From: Symbiotaphrina buchneri
Taxonomy: Eukaryota; Ascomycota; Symbiotaphrinales; Symbiotaphrinaceae
Assembly: GCA_001599915.1 (NCBI GenBank)
Contig: BCIG01000024.1
Span: 434,001 to 498,000 of the forward strand
Direction of reading: 5' to 3'
Length of the DNA: 64,000 bases
Below the pieces are notes generated by a model, which saw only the letters and a program-made list of their open reading frames with translations, had not been told where the DNA came from and searched no databases. The stretch's first letter is position 1. Each line of letters starts with the position of its first letter. The translations under genes were made by a program, and so were the position numbers. Shown here piece by piece: positions 15,319 through 62,961 of this stretch.

Positions 15319-16268
15319 GATGAGGTCGTTCTTCTTGTCTCCTACGGGCCATGCGACTTGAGCACGTCCGGCTTGTCGCATCTTCACCGATAATAATTAT
15401 TTTAGTCGCCGGCCGTCGGAGAAATATTTTACCTAGATGCCGACCTGTGAGGTCGAAATAAGCTTCCTGCCCCTGGTCATCCCTAGTCGCCCAATGGGGC
15501 CGTGCAACACGAAAATGAACAAAGCCCGGCAAAGAAGAAGGATAGGTGCCCCCGAGAACAAAGCACATATATGTGCGCAACGGCTCATGCCTTCTCTTCT
15601 CATTTCTTCTCCATTCTGAAAGAAAGGAACGCGGTTTTCCTCAACAGAAGATTGAAATCCTACAGTTATATGCCATGGATCAGAAGGTTCTTCTCATTCT
15701 GTTCTGCTGTGCGTAAGGTAACCTTCCTTTTCAGTAGTTTCTGCTCATAATTTTACCCCGATATTATTGGATCTGAATGATCAATATTAAAGATCATTTG
15801 ACAGTTGCAATATTACTTATTTATTACTTGAAAGTATGGTCCGACGTTGGACTTGTACAAATAAAGTAAACTTATCTGTCTATAATCCTATAAGACTTTA
15901 CTAGTAGGCTTTATAATAAGAAAAACATTCTTAATATTGTTACATTTTAAGATTCTTTGACTTGTAAAATATTATAATATACGATATAATAAGAAATATA
16001 TTTATATAAATAAAAAATATATAAATAAAATTCTCTAAAATAGTTTAATATCAAGTTACTTATGTAATGATACTAAGATAAGGTATTTAAAATAGCTTTA
16101 TTATATAAGAATTTAATTTCATTCACTTTGAATGTTATTATCTGATCAACCTCTCTGATTATCTTAAATAAGGATGATATTTTACAACACTGATGTTTTT
16201 GACATTCAACTTGAATTTTACAGCTTCAGATACTACTTTAAGTTGCTATTGCTAGTATCAGAAGCATT
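15319..16268. other. intergenic gap with extreme AT-rich block (about 15750-16240)
   Basis: Base composition changes sharply after about 15750. In 15961-16020, 55 of 60 bases are A or T, and the neighbouring 60-base rows are about 80-85% A+T, while the rest of the window is near balance. Runs of TA, TTA and ATAA dominate, and no ORF of coding character is present. The block ends where the first exons of the KMT1-like gene begin. It could be an old repeat worn down by RIP-type C-to-T mutation, or simply an AT-rich promoter and UTR. No terminal repeats or element parts were recognised. Confidence 0.6.
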
Positions 16269-18214
16269 ATGACATTCCTACAGGTAAATTGATCCAATCT
16301 TTAGGAAAGTAACCGATGATAGTAACCATCTAACTATCTACTATAGATCTTAGATCACCGACACAATCAAGTTGAGGAGGTAATACATCCGAGTCATGAC
16401 ATATCTTGATGTATTCGAACTTACTGTTGAAAGGAATATCTTGTTCAAGAAAGATTGAAAGATGGACAAGTCCGATCGTCCTGGATATTGGCCAAAGATC
16501 TGAAACATCATGCACAACAGATTCAACGATATCGCCAACGTTCTGCAACAAGGTAACACTCTGTATGACCTCTTCTTTAAGGTTGCACTGACACTATCTT
16601 GTCCAGCGAGACTATTGCATCAGCCAGGGACTCTGTTTCAAGCAGTTCTAAGTCGGGACGCAGCCGTAGTCGCGGTGATGAGCATGATGAATTTCTTACT
16701 GCTGAAGCTCCCCAACTCAAGTATCGACGCGTTGGGAAAGCAGCACAGAGCCAAACCCACGCGTCTACCTCTACTAAGATACCTGAACTCATCGATCTTT
16801 CGAAAGACGATGATGATGACGACGAGATTACGGCTCGGCGCTCTATTGGCAAACGGCGGCACAAAACAGAAAAACCTCGAGGACCCAAGTCTACTAGCCT
16901 TTCGAAGCAACGTATTGAAGTACAGATACCAATACGACCTTATGATCCATCCCAAAAAGCGCTGAGTGAGGCTCGTAAAGAGTCTCAACATACTTGGCAG
17001 GTGAGTTTATTTGTCTATAAAACAGAACATTTAGCCTCACTTGAGGTTACAGCTCCGCCCGAAGGTGGCAGATACGCAGATATCATTTATATCCGGCTAC
17101 TTTACTGTCCTCACAGCTGACATCACATGCTAGGGAGCAAATCTGCTTCGGGTTCCCAAGTCAGATATTTCGTCTGGTGGCCAGTCTCGAATCAGTCACC
17201 CTGGGCCGAAGCTCAAGCATACCCAGAAACCCCGGGATCTTCAAACTGGGCGGGCTTTCCTGGACCAATTGAGGGGTCTAACACCAGCTTTGACAGTCGC
17301 TGAGAATGCAGATATCACCCTACTACCATCGGATTTCATCTTTGTGGAAAAGAATGTTCTGCGGGAGGGTGTCTCACAACTTGACAATGCCACGCTCGTG
17401 GGTTGTACCTGCCGACCGGACAACGGCCGAGACGTCGGCTGCGAATATCTCTCCTGCAAATGTCTCGACAATTCGGCCGTGGACGAAAACGGAAAGCGTC
17501 AATTCCCCTACTTTGCAGTCGGTGCGAAGAAAGGTTGTCTACGAGAATTCTACCTGAACTCACGGCACGTGATTTTCGAATGCAACGAGCTGTGCCGGTG
17601 CCCTCCTCATTGCAAAAACAGGGTCGTCCAACACGGCCGAAATGTCCCGCTCGAGATCTTCAGAACTGCCGGCCGTGGCTGGGGTAAGTTGATCCCGGCA
17701 ACAAAGGACGAAGAAGCTTGCTGACTCGGTGAAAGGATTGCGCTGCACCCAAGATCTGCTCAAAGGCCAATTTATTGATACCTACAAAGGGGAGGTCATC
17801 ACCAGCGCCGAAGCGGACATGCGAGAGGAGGCGAATGGGCCGGAGAAGGATGTGTATCTCTACTCACTCGACAAGTACCGTGAGGAGTCGGAGCTGTTGG
17901 GCCTGGCAGAAGACGACTTCTATGTGATTGACGGACAGTACATGGGCGGCCCGACGCGGTTCATGAACCATTCGTGTGACCCCAACTGCCGCCAATTCGC
18001 CGTCACGTACAACAAGCACGAAGCACGTCTCTACGACCTCGCCTTCTTCGCCATCAGAGACATCCCGGCTTACACCGAGCTGACCTTCAACTATGTCGAC
18101 GACGACGAGGAGGATGACAACGAAGGGCTCGACCCGGCGGAGGAGAAGGACGGCGTGAAGCCAAGCAGGTGCCTCTGTGGTGCGGATAACTGCAAGGGCT
18201 GGCTCTGGCTCTGA
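16269..18214 (+). CDS. KMT1: H3K9 methyltransferase KMT1/Clr4/DIM-5 type (SET, pre-SET, post-SET) with N-terminal chromodomain-like segment
   Basis: The proposed exons are 16269-16283, 16347-16379, 16434-16552, 16607-17000, 17134-17683 and 17736-18214, giving 529 residues. The last three exons are firm. They contain a cysteine-rich pre-SET region (about 276-330; 'GCTCRPDNGRDVGCEYLSCK'), a SET domain with 'FMNHSCDPNCRQF' and 'ELTFNYVDDDEE', and a post-SET 'CLCGADNCKGW' (CxCx4C). Such enzymes trimethylate H3K9 for heterochromatin and, in Neurospora, RIP-linked DNA methylation. The first three exons are inferred. All GT/AG and phases fit, and together they read 'ILDHRHNQVEEEYLVQ', then 'SSWILAKDLKHHAQQIQRYR', like the later part of a chromodomain. 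An acidic 'ELIDLSKDDDDDDE' stretch follows and looks like a SUMO-interacting motif. The exact ATG is uncertain. Confidence 0.88.
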
Positions 18215-20286: not shown

Positions 20287-23200
20287 TCACACATCATCAG
20301 GGCGACCAGTCCGATGTGGCCTTCTAAGTGTGAAGCTGCGACGGATACTCTCTCCCCATGCCGAGTTATCCAGAACCTCAAGAACGTCCTGCGCACTCAC
20401 GTTGCTTCCTTGACGGCCATGGGTCCCACCATCAGAGCCGTAGCCTGCATCGGAGAAGCTTGGTCTAAAGGGGGACAGCTGTGGGCTGGCATCGGTGGAC
20501 CTTGTCGGGGAGCCCGATATGGATCCACCCCGGCTGCTGGCGGTGTGAGCCCGTGAACGGGAGTGAGCAAAAGGATTCACACCAGCGAACATGGCGGGCT
20601 CGGTAGGTGAGGGTGGCGCGCTCGGCTGGCGACCCCCCAGCGGTGATTCTGCAGCTTCGGCATCATTCCCTTCATCAACATAGATCTCCGGAATGGCCAA
20701 GTGTGGCACGGCCGCGAGACGGCCAGACCGTCTCTGTTCCACGATTCGTCTGAAACGCCGGGTCCAGTACATGGTGTCAAAGAATCCAATGACCACGTTC
20801 CGTCTAACCTGTTCTTCCACCCGTTGCAAGCGAGCCCGTCGTCGGAGGAATTCTTCGAGCCGTAAGCTTTTGCTATCGTTGATCACGTTGTAATGTGCGA
20901 GGATCATCAGGATCGTGCTGAAGGAGATGCCTCGGTCCGGATCAGCAGAGACCAAGACTTCCTCATAGAAGATGTTCATCCTCTGCCTACGCCGGCGAAT
21001 TTCATGGACGGGTATCTTTGACAGCTTCCGGGAAAGTTTGGCCAGGTCCACGCCGTCGACCACCCCTGGGGCGGACGCCGTAGAATTCCGTCGAGGAACA
21101 GTACAATCCTCCAGTATTCGTCCAACAGTGAATTCGCCATCATAGATACGCATCTCGAAAACGCCGGAGAGTTCCTAACATCTCCGTTAGTCCTCTGCCC
21201 CCGTCATCAAACCGAACGACTTACACCCAGCAGCCGAGGGAAGGCCTCCTTCGAAATAAAACCCGTGCCATCCGGGTCGAACATGGCCCATGCCTGCTTG
21301 AACCTGCGTATCTCCTCCCTGCTGACCACAGACAGGCCACTGCTCCTTTGATAGACGTAACTGAAGCTCTCATAGATGAGCGACACGAACAAGCTGACGA
21401 ATATATACATGCTCAGCAGGTTCCAAGAGATAAAGAGGACCTTTGCCCAAGCGTCGCTGCCACAGTCACTTGAAAAGAAGTCGGTACTGCCCACACAGTA
21501 GGGTTCTTTGATGCTTGCAAAGTCTTGCATGATTGCGTTCCAGCCTTCACCGCAGCTCATTCGGAAAAGAAGAATAAGAGCCTTGGGTACTGTACGAAAA
21601 TTCACGTTTCCGGTCTCATTGTCGCCAAACCGTGTCAGGCCGAATGTCTGCGTTAAGGCAATCGCATAGACCAGGAAGAGAACGAACCAGGTCGCAAGCA
21701 GATTACTGATAGCTGGTAGACTTGCCGCCGCGGTCTTGAACAACTGGTCAAGTTGATCGTTGCGCGGTATAAGGAGTAATGTGATGGACACTAGAAAAAG
21801 TTTGTTCAGCTGCATGTAGACCCGATCTTGGAATTCCGCCAGCACCAGGATTGTGGTAATGAATGATCCTGACACCGCCACGAGGGAGTATATATCCCAG
21901 GAGCTCTTTCGGAACCTCGTCCATGTGAGGCCGTTGATCCTGATAATGATATTGACAATGTAAAGGACGGTGAAAGCCAAAAAGACGCAGTCTGTCATCT
22001 GTCAGTATGTCGCAGGAGATATTCAAAGGGAGCGTACTTCGCGTTTGCTGCCACCAGTTTGGCTCGGGGAAGTATTCAGTCATGAGAAGTACAAGATGGA
22101 AGAACAAAACCAAAGCCACGGATCTCTGCCAACGGCCATGCTTCTTTACAGCCTGATGATAGCACCAGTGTTTCCATTTCTGATCCGGTCTGTTGGAAGG
22201 TCTCTTCGAAGGGGAGATCTGACGAAGTAGTTTCCTCAACTCCAGCCATGACCGTTGATCCGCAGTCAAATAGGCGACGCCTGTCTGTTCTGCAAAGTTT
22301 CGCATAAACACAGACACGAAAAGGGTCAGGACGAAGACAGCGCCTAGCAAGTTAAAAATGACAAAGAACACAGCGTTTCCTTGTGAGACAAAGGCCTGTG
22401 GTTGCGAGTCGCGACCTGTAATGCTCTGGGCGCTCCACATGACATCGATCCAACCTTCCTGAGACACGATCTGGAAAAGGATGAACAAGGAAGAGCCAAA
22501 GTTATCAAAACTATAATAAGGATTGGACACGGCACGAGGAGCCAGTACCTCCCAATTATAAGGCGTGCTGTTAAACTCGCCCACGCAATCAGAGAGATTG
22601 ATTATGCTAGATCCCCCATCGTTACAGCTCTGCATCTGGCCGTTGAACAGATTGAGCCCGTATATTGCAAAGGGTATCAATAGACTCAACGAAACGAATG
22701 CAGCCTAAAGTGAAGCATGAGCGATTGTGCTAGTAGCCGATGAAGGCAACGTACCGATATAATTTTCCAGCCGCCCAGAACAATGACTGAATGGAACGTC
22801 TCCTTGGCGCTATCGCTCACACTGAGCAGCCTCAACGCTCGCAACGCCTTGAAGGCTCCAACTGCGCGAGAAATGGCGTCCAAGCCATAGAGAGAGGTTG
22901 CAACATTGATCCAGAGCGTGATAAGCACTACGCCGTCGATGAAACCCCATGTGCTCCTGAAATAGGCGTTCGGTGTGAAAAATAGTCCATCCGCAATGAC
23001 TTTAATTGCCGCCTCGGCAGTGAACAGCCCAGCGAAGCCAAGATCCAGATAGTTGAACCAATTGCGCGTTGTCTCACCATGATGCTGGAAATACTCTTTT
23101 TGATATAACGGCGTAGTGACACAAGCCAGTAGGACCATAGCAACGATGGCAGCATAAATGAAAGCGGAGAAACCGAACCAGACCCACTTCACAGGCTCCA

Positions 23201-29917: not shown

Positions 29918-31834
29918 TTAGGCTGCGGCCTGGACCTCATGCGCCGCGGTGTTTTGTGCGCTAACTGCAGGCTGGGGCGCAACGTCGTTTGTGGCCTCGG
30001 GCTTTTCGGTCACCGCAGGTGCCTCAGTCGTTGGCACTTCGGCAGACTTGTCTGCCGCAGCTGTCTCAGTAGTAGCAGGCGTATGAGCGCTGTCCTTGGC
30101 CTCTGACTCGCTCTTAACTGCGCGAGACGGCTTGCGGAATAGCCCACCAAGCTTCGAGGTGGGCGACTTCTGCTTTGCCTCGCCATCCGAGGTCTCGCCC
30201 TCTGCTTTCTTTTCCTTCTTGCTGCCAAGAGTGCCAAAAAATGACGATGTACGGCGCTTCTCTTTCTGGGTCTCTGCGGGCGTTGTGGACGTAGCAGGGG
30301 CAGCAGGCGTGCTAGCTGTCACGGCCGGAGTGGCCGCAGTCGCGCCTTCCTCGGTGGCAACCGGCTCGGATGCAGATTCAGGTGCGGCAGCCGTCGTGCC
30401 AGTTGGCTCTTCTGAGTCCTTGGCAGGGACCGCAGGAGCTATTTCCTTCTTTTCTTCTGTTGGGCTCGTGACATCTTTCTTGAAGAGTGAGCCGAAAATG
30501 CTACTCCTCTTATGCGGCTTCGGCGCCGTCTCAGTTTTGGCGGTGGTCTCAGCAGGAGCAGTGGTTGCGGGCTCCGGGACGCTTGGCTCGGCTGCATTGG
30601 TGGTAGGTTCCGTCACTTCAGCCGTGGCAGGAGCACCTTCGGGGGCCACTACAGGCTCACCCACAACACGAGCGGCTGCAGAGAACTTAGCTACTCTTCA
30701 AGTATTGTGTAAAACAGGGCGTCACTTACCAACAGCGGGAGCACCGAGACCTTCGGCGGCAGGCGCCCCAGCTTCTGTCTTTGACTCCTCAGTCTCGGCT
30801 TTGGCGTCTGACTTCTCTTCCTTCTTTACCTCCTTCTTCTCTTCATGTTCCTCCTTCTTATTGAGGAGGCTGCCGAACACACTGGCCCGCTTTCTGGACG
30901 CAGAACGCTCCTTACGAGCATCAGGAGTCTTCTCGCGCTTCGTCGAGGTCGCAGCCACGACGGGTGCAGCTACGGCGGGCTTACCTAGAATGGGGCGTTA
31001 GTTCGAAGATGCTACCTCGCACCCATGAGGATGCAGCATAAGACCACTTACTGAGCTTCTCCTTGTGCTCCTTATATCCGGAGCTGCCAACCACGCCTTC
31101 GGCGAGGCCTTTGGCTTCCTCAGCCTTCGATTGCAAGGCAACAAGCCAGCCATCACGATCGGCAGTGGAACTGGCTTCAAAGAGGTACTTGTGGCCGTGC
31201 AGCCGGAAGGAGAACTCCTTGGTGGCTTCCTTCGTGATATCGGAGACGTCCGACTAACAATTGCCTTGGTGTCAGCGCCAGATTTGAAGTAGGATCAAGA
31301 ATCAAGAATTACGTACCAGGTTGAAGATGCCCGTAGGATGGGCCTTGTCCTCGGTACGCTTCGCAAAATAAAGCAAGCCCTTTCCGGTTTGGCTCGACCA
31401 GGCGGCGTTGTGGTGGGCAATCTCGGACTTCTCCTCGCGAAGATAGTGGTCTAGCTTCTCCGGCACAATAGCTTCATCGCCAAACCAGAAGAATCTCTTG
31501 GAGAAGCGAAGGGAGCTGCGGGTAAAGAAGGCTGGTCAGCTGGCTGTACATTCAAAGTCTGACGGTTGAGGAACAGTTTATCTTACCTGATGAGGCCGGG
31601 GGCCTTGTAGCCCAGAATGCCTTCGGTGATCGGCTTCGCTTCAACAGCGACCTCCTCCGGACCAACCTTTTGCTCCTTGGGCAGCTCGGCGTCAGTAGTC
31701 GTGGGTGCGGCAGTCTCAGCCTGGGTCGATTCCGCCGCAGGCGTCTCTGTTGGTGCTGCCACGGCCTCGTTTCCGATGGGTGTATCGAGCTTGGGAGCCT
31801 CAGCAGCAACCTCGGAGGGTTTGGTGTCTGACAT
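29918..31834 (-). CDS. PH-domain protein, Meu6-like, with repeated FGSL motifs
   Basis: Five exons read 31834-31587, 31515-31317, 31253-31052, 30984-30730 and 30675-29918, giving 553 residues. The N-terminus is Ala/Glu/Pro-rich. A PH domain covers about residues 85-205 ('FSKRFFWFGDEAIVPEKL', 'GLLYFAKRTEDKAHPTGIFN', 'FSFRLHGHKYLFEA'). The rest is low-complexity Ala/Thr/Pro/Glu sequence. Within it a short motif recurs: 'RASVFGSLLNKK', 'RSSIFGSLFKK', 'RTSSFFGTLGSKK' and 'SKLGGLFRKPSR'. Similar fungal proteins are annotated as meiotic-expression-upregulated protein 6 by similarity to fission yeast; a molecular role is not established. A CT-rich tract on the sense strand upstream suits a well-expressed fungal promoter. 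Confidence 0.88.
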
Positions 31835-34057: not shown

Positions 34058-37000
34058 TCATACAGCAGCAGTCAACACATAGCTGTGCTCACGTTAGTTC
34101 CAGCATCACGAAAACTCTCATGCGGTAAGGTCGACGTACGAAGTTATGGCAGTCATCCTCTCACTTGTCAGTTTGAGCCCAATCCGGAGCAGCTCCTGAG
34201 CCACAGCTGGCTCTTCCTTCTGCAGCTTCTCCCAGTTGGCTTCGCTCAGCAACCAAGCGACGCTGTCCCTCTCCGCTACTACAGTAGCTGTACGGCTAGT
34301 CTCCGAGAAGAACGGGAGCTCGCCGCACGTCGTACCTGCCACAATACTCTCGTAATACTTGCCTTGAGGCATTTGATATTCCGCCCGAAAGATTCCATCT
34401 TCGAGCAGATAAAACCCATCGGCCCGGTCCTGACAAGGTTAGCGATGCAGCGAGCCCGATCGGAAGAGAGCCACTCACCCCCCGATGGAAGACAGTAGTT
34501 CCTGCCCGGTATTCTTTTCGTTCAAAGTACGGGACGGCACGAAACCAGAAATCCTCGTTCTTATCGCTCAGATCTTGGAATATTTGAAGTATTAACGGCA
34601 GAGGCTGCTTAAAGCTCTGCCATTTGTCTGTGGGTTGAGGAGCTTCTTTTAGGGTCGTTGTCGCTACATGCTGCAAGTATTGCCGCCTGGGGGAATTGTA
34701 TGATACCTCTTGTGGGTATGCCGAGGCCTCCGACGATGGAACGTCTAAGGAAGGATGAGCACTGCCAAGTACGGAATCTTTTCGGGACATTGTTACTTAC
34801 TGAGACGTTGTGACTGTGGATGGTTCCTTTGGCCCATAGCGTCCTTGCGGCGGTAAAATGCTTTGAGCAGCTCATTCTCGCAGTATTCTAGAGCCGAATT
34901 CAGATCGCTAAATAATTTGACCGTCTTTTCTTCGTCAAATAAACCAACATTTCGGAGGCTCTGACCGACCTCCCCCTGGAGGGAAGTGCCGCTTATAAGC
35001 ATCTCGACACCTTTGGCTTGTAATACACGATTGATACGAGTGAAAGCCTCGGCTGCCGAGAAGTCAACTCCAGTTACATGGCTGAGGTCAAGAACGAGGT
35101 ATCTAATGGGCTGTTCCCGGAACGTCTCGTCGTCAAGCAGAGCGCGAATCCGGTCCTCCACGTTTGCGATGGTACCGAAGAAGAGAAACCCTGCTAGTTT
35201 GAGCACGAGTGTCTGTCGACCCACCTCCCGGAGGTATCTCTGTTGGATAGGATGTCGTCGAACAGTTGATCCAGCGACCTCACCGGTATAGGTGGCTCTG
35301 ATAGCTGATTTCCGAGACGTTTGGACCACATAATTCACGCAGGCCAGGATGATGCCAACAAGGATCCCGTAGACAAAGTCCCATGCACCCATTGTGACCA
35401 CAATGATGACAATCTGGGAATTCGTTAACGATGTTCCATCGTCCCCGGGGAAAGTTACTCACTGTGACGTATTCTAGTCGATGTACTCTTCCCCATGTAT
35501 CAAACAGTGCTTCTCTCATAAGATCTATCCCAAGGAGAAATATGAGAGCCCCTACAACCATTATAGGAATATAACCAATTATTGTCGGACCCGCGGCGAG
35601 GATACCACATGTGCCGATAGCCAACATGACGCCGGCAATCCGGCTATCTCCTCCACTTCTCATAAAGAGTAGACTGTTGGTATAGACCAGGTAATTCTAG
35701 GCTTATGTAAGTCTCCAAATGTTCCGCAACAACAGCAGTCATATTGTCCACTTACCTGCACGCTGCCAGCTAGACCGGAAACAGCATTTGATATTCCATG
35801 TGCGATGAGTTCGCGGTCTACGTTGACATTATCTTCTCCGCATGAGAACCCTAGTGCTGGTACGTTGATCGGTACATGAAGGATTCCGAAAAAGGTCAAC
35901 GCAAACATTGCGGGAATGTTGGAGACGAGTGCATTCCAGTCCACGGCACGGAAATCTTTTTGAGTCAGTCAACGAAGTATGGGGGGGCAGTGACCTTATC
36001 ATACCATAGAGCGTATAAAAATGATAGAACGGCACTCCTGACGCGGGCATCTCAAAAACCCAGCCCCTCTGCCTCAGATCTACAAGGTCGAGCTCTGGAA
36101 TGGCTGCAACGAAGAAGTAGAAGACCGCCGGAATGACCATAAAGTAGCCAGGCACGAACAAGGGGCTTTTCACCCAGCGTTGAGCAATAAGCAGTATGAC
36201 CGCTAGCAACAATGGGACCAGCCAGAGGAATAACGTGTCGAGTTCGAAGAGTTTGCGAAGGGTGGCTATATTATAGTCCAGATTCCCTTCCAGCCGAGCA
36301 GAAACCTCAATACCAGTGGCAACCAGAAACCAGCCAACACCGCCGATGCATCCGATAAGGATATGTCGAGGGAAGAAGCCGATCAGGCGACCGAGGCGGC
36401 AGATGCCCATCAGGAAAAAGACCAATCCCGTAAGTACGGCACTGATGGCAAACGAGAGGATAGTAGTGGCAAGCACGGACTTTGAGTTTTCCTCTCCGAC
36501 CCTTTCTAGGATATTGAGGGCCATTTGATGGAAAAATGGTACCACCTCAATCTGCACAATGGGTTAGAGCTGATGAACCATGACGGCTTTTTGAGATTGT
36601 TACCATTTCCGACCCTATGCCACCTTTGAACACACTTCCACCGCAAGAATAGACCAGTTGCGAAATGATGCAGCTGACATAGAACATAGATATCCCATCG
36701 GGACCCAGTTCCGAGAATATTGGCTGGCCCAAGGGGAAGAGAATCATGCCTTCGTTTGTCAGAATGATTGGGAGGATATACGTGTATGAAGGTGTGAACA
36801 TACCATAGGACAAAGCATCGAGGATGTTCAGAAGAAGCCCTAAGATGACCGCCGGTATATAAGAAGCCGGCTGCACCACAGCACGCTTCCATACAACTCT
36901 CCGATCCCAACCCTTTGGATTTACTACAGTGCGTCTAATGGTCGATGCCCAGTCTCTAGTCCAGGCTAAGGCTCGGCCAACTTTTCTCCTCGCAGGCCGC

Positions 37001-48527: not shown

Positions 48528-50832
48528 ATGGTAGGCGTTAAACGCCGAAGCGGTGCCGCATCTGGGGCTGCGGAGTCCAGCGACCAGGTTAGCCTGAAAA
48601 AGCAGAGGCTTCAGCCTTCGTCCTCGCATAAGAACCATAATACACGAAAGACTACTAAGCACGCTGCGGGCGACTTCGATTCAGCCGACTCTGAGGAGTC
48701 AGATGTAACTGATGGTCATAGATTCAACGGCCTTGCTGGCAGCGATGATGAAGAGAGCGATGGAGACTCAGGTTCTGAGACCGGTGTCCGCATGACTGGG
48801 GCGTTGCCTGTGGATGATGCTATGGAGACTCAGGTTCTGAGACCGGTGTCCGCATGACTGGGGCGTTGCCTGTGGATGATGCTAAACAGAATAAAAAGAC
48901 AACGTCTGACACGGAGACTTCCCTCCTAAAGTGTATGTTTCAATGCGGCCCCTGCAATGCATCCAGAGCCCCTGCTGATGGCATTTTAGCTACTTCATCC
49001 AAAGAAGCCCATGCGAAGCAGAAGACACTCGCGCAGGAGCGAAAGGCTGCGAAGCCGAATGCTGATCTTATTCAGCGCTCGAAAAAGATTTGGGAGCGCC
49101 TGAGGAGGAAATCTCATGTGCCGTTGGCTGAACGCAAAAAGCTAATTGAAGAACTGTTCGGGATTATCACCGGCAGGGTCAAAGACTTCGTCCTAAAGCA
49201 CGATGCCGTCCGCGTGATCCAGACCGCGATCAAATATGGAAATCTGGAGCAGAGGAAGATGATCACTCGAGAACTCCAGGGGGAATTCCGGGGTCTTGCA
49301 GAAAGCAGATACGCCAAGTTCTTGATCGGGAAGCTGCTGGTCCATGGGTACGTCCTGGAACTCTATTCGCACTTAGCTTCCCGCGCTGATATTTGATATG
49401 TAGCGACAACGATATTAGGGATATGATTATTCCTGAGTTCTATGGCCATGTGCGCCGCTTGATAAAGCACGTGGAGGCGTCCTGGATACTTGACGACATC
49501 TATCGGACTGTTGCAACCCCGGAGCAAAAGGCCAACATCCTACGAGAATGGTACGGCCCAGAGTTTGTAATTTTTCGCGCGAATGCGGCGGAAGGTGTGC
49601 CGGTATCTGCGTTGTCGGACATAACCAAGGCGCAGCCTGAGAAAAGAGCAACAATTATGGCTTCGTTGTATGAACTCATTAACCAGCTCGTGCAGAAGAA
49701 AATGACCGGCTTAACATTGCTCCATGACGCGATGCTGCAATATTACCTCAACGTCAAGACTGACAGCGAGGATGCCACGGAGTTCTTGGAACTTATCAAA
49801 GGAGATGAGGCGGGCGATTTGCTCAAAAACCTTGCTTTCACAAAATCAGGCAGCCGGTTAGTCTGTTTGGTACTCGCCCATGGAACAGCGAAGGATCGGA
49901 AACAGATCTTGCGCACATACAAGGACATCATTCCTACCATGGCCTTTGATGCAAACGCACATCTAGTGCTGTTGGTATGCTTCGATGTCATTGATGATAC
50001 TGTCCTTACTTCCAAGGCTATCTTCCCTGAGCTTCTGGGAAAGGGCGATGTCAGTTCTTCGGCGAGCCAACAACAGACGCTTCTGGATATGATAGTGGAC
50101 CTAAACGCTCGAGTGCCCGTCCTGTACCTCTTCGCGGGTCCAGCCAAGTGGTTGGTCCCCACCTCCACCTCTGCGCTGCTGGATGAAGTTCATGACATTC
50201 GTGTGAACACTTCCAAGAAAGACGCGGATGTTCGCAGGAAAGAGCTCCTCAGGTCCTTATCTCCTCCACTGCTGGCCTTTATCGCACAACAAGCGCCTGC
50301 GCTTCTGCAGACCAGTTTCGGCTGTCAATTCATCACGGAGGTAATAATAGGTTCTCAGGCCTCGGAGGAAGAAAGGCTGCCAGCCCTGCAAGCAGTTGCT
50401 GCTGTTTGCGAAGGCAATCCAGCAGATGATGGTCATATTATTAGCAGTCCCGCCGCTGGCAAGTTGCTGAAGACGTTGGTACAAGGAGGGAAGTTCAACC
50501 AGAAGTCCGCCAAGATAGAGCTCGTTGAGCTGCCGTTAGACTTCGGAGATCTGCTCTTCGACAAGATTCAGGACCATGTTGTGGGTTGGGCGACCGGAGA
50601 TGGAAGCTTTGTCGTTGTTGGATTGCTGGAAGCGCAGTCTTTCTCGCGCAAGAAGGAATTGCTGGACACGCTCAGGAAGAACAAGAAGGCTCTGGTAAAG
50701 GCCAGCCAGCAGAACCCAAAAAAGGAAGAAGATGGCGGCGTCCAGCTGGCCAACGGGAAGAAAGGTGCCAGTAAACAGTCTGCAAAAGAAGGGGGTAATA
50801 AGGGGGCGAAGATTTTGTTGGAGAAACTGTGA
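48528..50832 (+). CDS. PUF6: pumilio-homology nucleolar protein Puf6
   Basis: The proposed exons are 48528-48771, 48834-48932, 48990-49347 and 49404-50832, giving 709 residues; phases agree throughout. The N-terminus is basic, then acidic ('ADSEESDVTDGHRF'). PUM repeats follow ('KKIWERLRRKSHVPLAERKK', 'HDAVRVIQTAIKYGNLEQR', 'SRYAKFLIGKLLVHGDND') and a CPL domain ('IELVELPLDFGDLLFDKIQD'), ending in a Lys-rich tail. Puf6 binds RNA, acts in 60S assembly and in yeast represses ASH1 translation. The first intron (48772-48833, GTTCTG...CTCAG) coincides exactly with one unit of a 62-bp tandem duplication. Without its removal the frame stops at 48857, so either it is spliced or the gene is disrupted. 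The other introns are canonical (GTATGT...TTTTAG, GTACGT...TGTAG). Confidence 0.9.
48760..48883 (+). repeat. perfect 62-bp tandem duplication inside PUF6
   Basis: Copies occupy 48760-48821 and 48822-48883 and agree at all 62 positions by eye. Each begins ATGGAGACTCAGGTTCTG and ends GTGGATGATGCT. The only AGGT in the unit gives an acceptor in copy 2 and a donor in copy 1, exactly 62 nt apart. Since 62 is not a multiple of three, the duplication shifts the frame if read through. Confidence 0.95.
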
Positions 50833-60559: not shown

Positions 60560-61150
60560 TTAAATACAAGATGAAGTGGCCAGGTGTATGCTGTGTACGT
60601 ACCATGACTGTCTCGGTCCGTGGACGTCCCGCGGGGACCCCGGAGAATGGGTCATCAGGAAAAGTGCTGTGCCCAATTGTATCAGGCAAATTTGCTTGCT
60701 GCTGTTCTTTCTCCAACGGCAGCGCACAAGCCCTCTGGGTCGATGGTGAACGTCCGAGCTTCGTTCCGCGCGTTTACATCTGAATGGATCAAGCGGAGTC
60801 ACCAGTTTGATTTGGACACCCTTGATTATTCCCGTATCTGAAGGCCGGACGAAGAATTTCCACTCGTGGTCACTGGAAGACCCGGGAGACGGCCAGATGA
60901 GCCTGTGGGTGTTTCCGATGAAGATGATGATAGTTTGCATGTCATGCCGCGGCAGCACCGCCCCGTTCCCATCTCGCAGCACTTCTGCAGCTCTCTCAGC
61001 ATATTTAGCAGGATAAGTCCTCTGCAGCTGCCTAGCCAGAATCTCATCCTGCGGCCCTGTCGTGGCGTCAACCACATCGGGCAGTTGGCCCCGACCTGGC
61101 TGGTACGGGGTGAGCATGCTGGGCTGCTCATCAACGGAAACGATGGTCAT
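60560..61150 (-). pseudogene. RING/YEATS-family relic, copy B (YEATS-like segment about 60806-60925)
   Basis: After a CTCGCAG acceptor-like site the frame begins 'MTIVSVDEQPSM', nearly the same as copy A ('MTIVSVDDHPSM'). At DNA level the following ~35 bases also match copy A, including its NCPLC region. In copy B a one-base gain and a later one-base loss put that part out of frame, so the zinc-ligand cysteines are lost. It continues 'EILARQLQRTYPAKYAERAA' and 'FIGNTHRLIWPS', then 'DHEWKFFVRPSDTGIIKGV', a strong match to the YEATS-domain HxWxxFVR block. Further downstream, in another frame, 'DPEGLCAAVGERTAASKFA' resembles copy A again. No RING exon precedes it. Probably a decayed duplicate. 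Confidence 0.55.
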
Positions 61151-61201
61151 CTGCGAGGGATGGAGGCGCTGTTCTCCACCAACTTCCGTCCAGAAGGTCC
61201 T

Positions 61202-62090
61202 CTAATTATCATTTGCTCCCGAATCGCTCTTCGAATAACCGACAATCTTCCTCGGTCCAATCCAGGAGCCAGGGCGCGACCGGCATCTGGAGATGCATTT
61301 GGTTGGGGCGTGGCCGGGCGCAATGGCAGCAGCAGAAGGGCCGGCTGTGACGGGGCCGGCGGAGACTGGACCAGCAAGACCAGAGAGAATGCCAACAGTA
61401 CCGGCGAGCAAGGGCGCTGGCGGGGCCGACGGAGGGAGTCCTAGCGCAGACTGATTCACAAAGAATTCTCCTTCTGGAGTTCGTTGATATTGATGATTTA
61501 TGGCGGCGAGGGCCTTTCGATACTTCAAGGGTAGATCTCTCCACCCCCCAGAGGTGTATGGTTTCTTGGTCCGGTCCCCTCCGTCATTGAACTCCTTCGC
61601 CGCCGCCACGTTTGCCTCCGGATGGGTCTCACGTGCTTTTCGTAGTTGTATGATCAACATCAACTCTGAAAGTGTAGTTGTTCTTTCTCCAAAGGCAGCG
61701 CAGAAACCCTCAGGGTGTCTGGTCCCCGCGGAATCCAACTCTGTTGCCAGCGTTTCCTCTGGCGTCCCCGTCGTACTCGTCTGGCACAATGGACAGTTCG
61801 CCTCGACTGGGTTCACTGCTTCCATCATGCTAGGATGGTCATCTACAGACACAATCGTCATCTGGGATGTGACAGATATATCGGCCCACTTTGCCATACA
61901 GGGGGAGCATAGGACATGCCTGCATATCGTCCTGACGGGGTTTTACAGAAGCTGCTTGCATACCGGGCAAAGGTAGTTCTTGAGGTTCCGGTCCGCCGGA
62001 CGGTTGGTTCGCTGGGCTTGCCATTGTGAGTTCAAGGGAAAAGCAAAGAAGATGAATGAAGTGATATATCCAAGTGCGGATGAGGAGTGT
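61202..62090 (-). pseudogene. RING-finger gene relic, copy A
   Basis: Read on the minus strand, 'NLKNYLCPVCKQLL' (to 61946), a TAA at 61945-61943, then 'NPVRTICRHVLCSPCMAKW' and, after 'MTIVSVDDHPSM', 'NCPLC'. Together this gives the C-x2-C, C-x-H-x2-C-x2-C and C-x2-C ligands of a RING domain, with one in-frame stop between the first and second pairs. The open frame continues to 61202 with an Ala/Pro-rich tail. An in-frame ATG upstream of the RING was not found; the nearby ATG (62024) is in a different frame. The TAA could come from CAA by C-to-T change at CpA, the RIP signature. A functional splice form is not excluded. Confidence 0.55.
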
Positions 62091-62099
62091 CTACATGCC

Positions 62100-62961
62100 G
62101 ATGTAACATAAACGATGTCGACCGAACAGACATTTCTCTTTGCCACCAATGGCAGTGCAGCATTGCATTGTTGGAGCTTTTCAAGTTGTTCTCTTCATGC
62201 TGCTCTTCCTTCGACGCAACTTCTTGAGATTCATTATCCCCGTTGGCAGTGCAGCATCCGGGATGCGATATCAAAGGACAGATCCTTCCCTAAAAGGGGA
62301 CGCAAAAAGCTCCACGAGTTGGAGCAGCGTAACCTGAAGGTGGACAAATGACGGGGAACGAAGCGGGCATCTCATGCACCGCGGTGTATACGCATATATA
62401 CTGACAAGAGAGGATGCATCACCAGTTGTCGACGTATTGTCGTCCTGTCCGTGTCCTGCTTCAAAATCGGCCCAGCGTACATGTCGTGCTGGGCGTTGAC
62501 CTGGTCTTGCGAGTGCACTTCTTCTTGGCGATACCGCGTCCCAGTGATACGGCGTATGCGTTCCTGACATGCGTTCCTGACTATATAGAGGATAAGTCTG
62601 CTCAGCAGTAGCGTATATATATACAGCTACCATGGCGCATCGAGAGCTGCAAGGCGCCTGCTCCCTTCCTTGGCTTCTCAGACGTTTGTCTTTCTTGGAC
62701 AAACACAGATTCATCACACTTCAATCTGTCCACTCATGCCTCATAGGGCTGCAAATGATGGCGCTGCTGCGGCGAGACTGCTGCGGCGAGACTAAGGTTA
62801 GCACGACATCCTGAGCCTTCTGGTGTAAGTCGACGTCAAGATGGCACATGGCGTGTGACGTGTAGGGCGGTGCCACCAGTGCGTCCTGGAGCTTGTGGAA
62901 GTTGATTGTGATGTTTGACGGCTTGCTGGCCAACCTACCCGGGGGCACGAGATGTGTTTCC
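62100..62961. other. gene-poor stretch
   Basis: Overlapping ORFs up to 148 codons (62271-62717) have no recognised domain. Composition is ordinary. No repeat was noted. Confidence 0.35.

Follow-up and report, generated by a model that had tools for sequence, protein, structure and literature searches.

Whether an intron can be caught at the moment of its birth is the question raised by an exact tandem duplication in the first exon of a gene of the fungus Symbiotaphrina buchneri. A preliminary description of the stretch of DNA analysed here (64,000 bases, hereafter the window) had proposed that the two copies of the duplicated unit form a newborn intron, that is, the arrangement predicted by the tandem-duplication model of intron gain, which PMC4974935 and PMC3443670 describe and credit to Rogers (1989). 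The geometry of the locus does match this model. Taken together, the evidence set out below makes a newborn intron less likely than an error of assembly or an allele with a broken frame, and we tentatively favor a false duplication introduced by the assembly; the likelihoods given to the four readings considered are matters of judgement and were not computed.

The host gene is a fungal PUF6, a ribosome-assembly gene encoding a Puf6/PUM3 protein with a CPL domain. On the forward strand, exon 1 is open from its start codon (ATG 48528) and, before the repeat (48528-48759), it specifies an unconserved, charged N-terminus. Searches with 48528-48854 returned no match in PDB or Pfam, nor did the N-terminus match any solved structure at E values up to 10, so that homology is silent on whether relatives carry one copy of the unit. 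Downstream, an ordinary intron 2 (48933-48989; 57 nt, GTATGT ... CTGAT ... TAG, with no stop in the downstream frame) is followed by the exon in which the conserved protein starts (48990-49347; match to 8ia0_CZ, E 1.6e-47). Similarity to 8ia0_CZ, a PUM-HD domain protein that we take to be the Chaetomium Puf6, begins at the acceptor of this intron. Being a multiple of three and free of in-frame stops, intron 2 could also be retained in a manner invisible to reading-frame checks. An equally ordinary intron 3 (49348-49403; 56 nt, GTACGT ... CTGAT ... TAG), for which a rival acceptor at 49418 scores equally, leads to the last exon (49404-50832), which is open to its stop and contains the CPL domain (8ia0_CZ, E 8.5e-149; PF08144, E 2.1e-32). 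Protein scans with this exon gave 3 pattern matches in viral contigs and 17 in prokaryote genome contigs, none of which was confirmed, and 29 bases of the duplicated unit, used as an exact query, gave 0 in both; these collections are non-fungal and say nothing about single-copy relatives.

Codon usage agrees with this gene structure. The exon pieces of PUF6 score 0.149 to 0.184 per codon, exon 1 before the repeat standing at 0.149, against an average of 0.116 in the training frames and -0.108 in intron 2. The training set consists of 22 hand-cut interiors of open reading frames, which may contain short non-coding ends, and it includes the last PUF6 exon, whose score is therefore partly circular. 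On either side of the repeat, values range from 0.149 to 0.178, the two copies being identical and hence non-independent. The 11 out-of-frame codons of copy 2 that precede the stop score 0.084, and over so short a length the measure separates pieces poorly.

As far as the repeat itself is concerned, Tandem Repeats Finder reports at 48760-48884 a 62-bp unit in two head-to-tail copies, with period 62, 100% matches and no indels. Identity at an offset of 62 holds over exactly 48760-48822 (63/63 positions), which gives an array of 125 bp: copy 1 (48760-48821) is read in the exon-1 frame, and copy 2, together with one extra matching base, occupies 48822-48884. The head-to-tail repetition without any difference is thus as previously described, and so is its position, although the array is one base longer than the interval 48760-48883 given for it. 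In the assembled sequence this is a head-to-tail duplication of a purely exonic segment, with an exact microhomology of one base. The presence of the 62-bp duplication in the sequence is certain, and an exact adjacent repeat over 63 positions is no chance match, because the two further perfect arrays of the window, built of 13- and 14-bp units, are short, and the other direct repeats found are diverged (84% and 78% alike) and non-adjacent. The window yielded no second long perfect repeat. The idea that such identity implies a very recent event holds only in part, as 0 differences in 62 positions merely bound the divergence below 4.7% (95%).

The duplication shifts the frame of exon 1. Read through, the frame from ATG 48528 ends after 109 codons at a TGA (48855-48857), the stop that the preliminary description had placed at 48857. 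The downstream frame is open from 48818, and within it copy 2 encodes the same peptide that copy 1 encodes in the exon-1 frame. Moreover, the TGA overlaps an ATG of the downstream frame at 48854 (ATGA). A possible reading of these facts is a real, recent and unspliced mutation carried by the sequenced strain: the frame would end at 48857, and the conserved Puf6 would be lost or reduced, N-terminally shortened from ATG 48854. Short tandem duplications are ordinary mutations, both the stop and the overlapping ATG are there in the sequence, and the part that would be missing matches no solved structure or Pfam family, the conserved part beginning near 48990. Against this, ten ATGs lie upstream of 48854 (within 48528-48822), and a C at position -3 gives ATG 48854 a weak context. 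In addition, it should in our judgement be rare for a sequenced strain to have the frame of a conserved ribosome-assembly gene broken, and we consider this reading unlikely. A special rescue by stop and restart at the ATGA was considered and rejected, given that 1979 of 15495 simulated 62-bp duplications (13%) produce such an overlap at their first stop, which makes it unremarkable.

The alternative of direct interest is that the spliceosome removes the extra copy. In the putative newborn intron (48772-48833, forward strand, 62 nt), copy 1 would supply the donor (CAG/GTTCTG) and copy 2 the acceptor (ACTCAG/GT), the segment being excised from some of the transcripts at least, while those left unspliced would run into the stop and decay. 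The geometry on which the proposal was based is correct: AGGT occurs once per copy (48770 and 48832), donor and acceptor lie 62 nt apart, the 48771/48834 junction is exact, and excision of this GT...AG segment of one period restores the frame and joins the rest of Puf6 in phase. However, frame restoration and reuse of AGGT follow automatically from any tandem duplication that contains AGGT, and for this reason they do not constitute independent evidence. Since AGGT is present in just 3507 of 20731 62-nt coding segments (17%; 22 coding stretches of the window), the in-phase fit is worth a factor of about six and is no proof. Length is also favorable, as claimed: the preliminary description gave 46-67 nt for neighboring introns, and 21 introns tabulated in the window measure 48-71 nt, with one of 46 nt in CCH1.

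Splice signals are where the proposal weakens. The focal donor has T at +3 and T at +5, with neither a purine at +3 nor a G at +5; among 2022 Fusarium introns, T at +3 occurs in 6%, T at +5 in 3%, G at +6 in 4% and a CTRAY branch site in 91% (PMC5677156). Scored with the Fusarium matrix, which may not be that of the host, the donor reaches -5.82, below all of the 21 window introns (-1.6 to 8.1), and a donor at least as good is offered by 55% of 1060 GTs in coding exons and by 74% of 3759 simulated AGGT duplications. A branch site of the CTRAY or TTRAY type is missing from 48772-48833, where only ATGAT and ATGAC, 16 and 38 nt upstream of the acceptor, respectively, come near; 20 of the 21 window introns contain one or the other motif. 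In favor of splicing, the predicted pairing of the donor with the 5′ end of U1 (-5.6 kcal/mol) falls in the middle of the range of the 21 introns (-11.0 to -1.1) and is equalled or bettered by 6% of the 1060 coding GTs by energy, and by 19% by paired bases; among 68 AGGT sites, however, 31 pair as well, which makes the focal one ordinary for its kind. Donor accessibility (0.40, lower in 11 of 21 window introns) and G+C content (0.58, with 0.41-0.60 in introns) are uninformative.

A combined score adds branch and acceptor terms to that of the donor. With the first set of weights, the focal segment scores -8.25 against 0.3 to 17.8 for the 21 introns and ranks 95th among the 177 GT/GC...AG pairs that restore the frame; at least as good a score is reached by 63% of the 3759 simulated duplications, and 14% reach the weakest real intron. 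With gentler branch weights, which give credit to the near-branch ATGAT, it scores -1.61 against 3.4 to 17.7 and ranks 37th; of the simulated duplications, 921 (25%) then equal or exceed the segment, and 321 (9%) attain the score of the weakest intron. The segment lies under all 21 introns with either weighting, and an earlier, cruder ranking of 48 options left it outside the top six. Its standing among random AGGT duplications, at their average or above it, depends on the weights, and because its rank does so, we slightly raised our estimate for the intron and lowered that for the artefact. The weak donor lowers the chance that 48772-48833 is spliced, without excluding it. Of the interpretation as a newborn intron, then, geometry, U1 pairing and length stand, and the donor and branch signals speak against it: that the segment is an intron is possible, with no support from its splice signals.

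These comparisons have to be read with the choice of introns in mind. The 21 window introns were picked by hand, intron 2 of PUF6 by eye, and several have rival acceptors (e.g., in CLR4, SLD5 and PUF6 intron 3); candidate introns were omitted when they were overlapping alternatives, lacked gene support or were unclear. One of the searches required GT[AG]NG donors, so that these two donor features (purine at +3, G at +5) arise partly by construction. Accordingly, the set was partly chosen by donor consensus, and this exaggerates the contrast with the focal segment. Eleven of the 21 introns come instead from junctions ranked by consensus score with no donor filter, and among these G at +5 is found in 10/11 and a purine at +3 in 11/11. 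The weights for branch, distance and acceptor are our own rounding of Fusarium classes, with distance preferences drawn from general background.

The duplication could also be real and be rescued by a different intron that removes the stop, for example a longer intron 2 ending at 48989. Among the six best of the 177 options (5.5 to 3.9), all of which have weak donors, four use the acceptor of intron 2 and two use 48931. These donors are far weaker than the GTATGT at 48933; moreover, introns of 146-275 nt would be needed, compared with the 48-71 nt tabulated, and coding sequence would be deleted. We regard this as very improbable.

The window as a whole provides the background for judging the assembly. 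With introns of 46-71 nt and the proteins that it encodes, it resembles a chromosome segment of a filamentous fungus. Besides PUF6, it encodes a Cch1-like channel, coatomer beta, a PX/PXA/RGS protein, a GID4-like protein and a sulphate permease, gene names beyond Pfam families being our own reading. Frame-consistent introns occur, for example, in CCH1 (21992-22037, 46 nt) and in the sulphate permease gene (35697-35755, 59 nt). At 36552-36603 (reverse strand), the latter probably uses a GTAACA donor with no G at +5, which we chose over alternatives on the assumption of the expected protein sequence. A likely intron at 30970-31051 (reverse strand) has two candidate acceptors 15 bases apart, with GTAAGC directly after the first; alternative acceptors or adjacent introns are possible. 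An AT-rich intergenic stretch (15800-16300, G+C 23.6%) has a TpA/ApT ratio of 1.07 against 0.59-0.72 in four stretches outside it, and a (CpA+TpG)/(ApC+GpT) ratio of 0.96 against 1.16-1.47, and is possibly a relic of repeat-induced point mutation. At 60560-61942 (reverse strand), two adjacent open reading frames have in common a diverged stretch, QMTIVSVD..PSM, as well as a 45-nt match (84%, spacing 976 bases). One of them has an apparent RING-type cysteine pattern that is seemingly lost in the other, 61202-61942 has no hit in Pfam, and the pair is perhaps a decaying tandem gene copy. Short perfect tandem repeats lie at 62556-62581 and 62764-62793.

Against this background, a false duplication in the assembly is the explanation that we tentatively prefer, although we would not give it an even chance. 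The second copy would be absent from the genome of the organism and would have arisen where two overlapping assembly pieces were joined and their overlap left unmerged. The true exon 1 of PUF6 would then have one copy of the unit and read straight through, with no need for an intron at that point. The preliminary description had itself named an assembly error as an alternative, and perfect identity of the copies fits this as well. It fits, moreover, that the array is the sole long perfect one in the window, that its exact microhomology is just one base, that codon scores are normal on both sides, as expected with a single working copy, and that downstream PUF6 matches Puf6-type proteins of solved structure, broken only by two ordinary introns. 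The second copy also comes without a good intron, the best frame-restoring option scoring 5.5 when 20 of the 21 window introns score at least 8.2 (5.4 and 8.1 with gentler weights). The period of 62 equals k-1 of a 63-mer assembly, which is numerology and no test. From an exact duplication in an otherwise open coding gene with weak splice signals, we infer an origin in the assembly. Some observations pull the other way: the window contains no N; further conserved genes inspected give no hint of similar errors, the frame changes in SEC26, CLR4, MDM1 and GID4 having plausible introns, as do several of those in the sulphate permease gene and CCH1 (this leaves aside CCH1 at 24.2-25.05 kb and the last junction of the permease gene); the RNA of 48740-48900 folds in an ordinary way (z-score -0.55), with no structural feature predicting a drop in coverage; and a random 62-nt unit would contain AGGT just about 17% of the time.

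Comparison with known systems helps to place both readings. Of the routes of intron gain, tandem duplication is the one with the best documentation (PMC3443670), and its mechanism has been demonstrated in vivo elsewhere (PMC3443670, PMC4974935). The excerpted text of PMC12124190 makes no mention of it. In vertebrate ATP2A1, as in PUF6, an exonic segment with AGGT is duplicated in tandem, and excision from one AGGT to the next can leave the protein unchanged. Unlike in PUF6, the duplicated region of ATP2A1 is reported to provide a branch point and a polypyrimidine tract, and intron creation was reproduced experimentally in the paralogue ATP2A2 (PMC3443670, PMC4974935); PUF6 has a poor donor and no standard fungal branch site. 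Among fungi, fission yeasts gained introns in short exonic tandem repeats of SPOG_01682 and SOCG_00815 (PMC3629103). Most gained introns have no source that can be traced; in fission yeasts, 2 of 62 have one (PMC3629103). Those repeats are 24-nt units in several non-identical copies with partial EST support, whereas PUF6 offers two identical 62-bp copies. That these repeats are imperfect was taken by the authors to speak against an error of assembly (PMC3629103), a line of reasoning that the identical copies of PUF6 do not allow. The proto-splice site is given as AGGC in PMC3629103 and as AGGT in PMC4974935. A recent intron of a potato RdRp gene likewise stems from a tandem duplication (PMC4974935), but this crosses an existing intron boundary, inherits the 3′ signals and recruits a GTAAG donor from the exon, in contrast with the purely exonic unit of PUF6. 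False duplications in assemblies, the subject of PMC9516828, create false gene features through an extra copy, as would the very short tandem join that we propose for PUF6.

Weak sites do not by themselves disqualify a new intron. In Drosophila, the sites of new introns are weaker and stops within them more frequent, nonsense-mediated decay acting as a backup (PMC2809761); stop enrichment was not found in Aspergillus according to the review PMC3443670. A doubtful scenario would be that of an intron at birth in a filamentous fungus: an unmutated duplication whose CAG/GT pairs with U1, a makeshift branch site at ATGAT, and nonsense-mediated decay hiding the unspliced transcripts. In our judgement, a spliced duplication would also be favored by selection.

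If the genome proves to hold a single copy, PUF6 would serve as a caution, as a short assembly duplication containing AGGT always mimics a perfect in-phase newborn intron. Introns derived from tandem duplication are known, also in fungi, and a proven case in PUF6 would be an unusually young further example, that is, an intron predating any optimization of its signals. If splicing is true, the locus would offer an example at zero divergence in which to measure how efficiently an unoptimized duplication is spliced.
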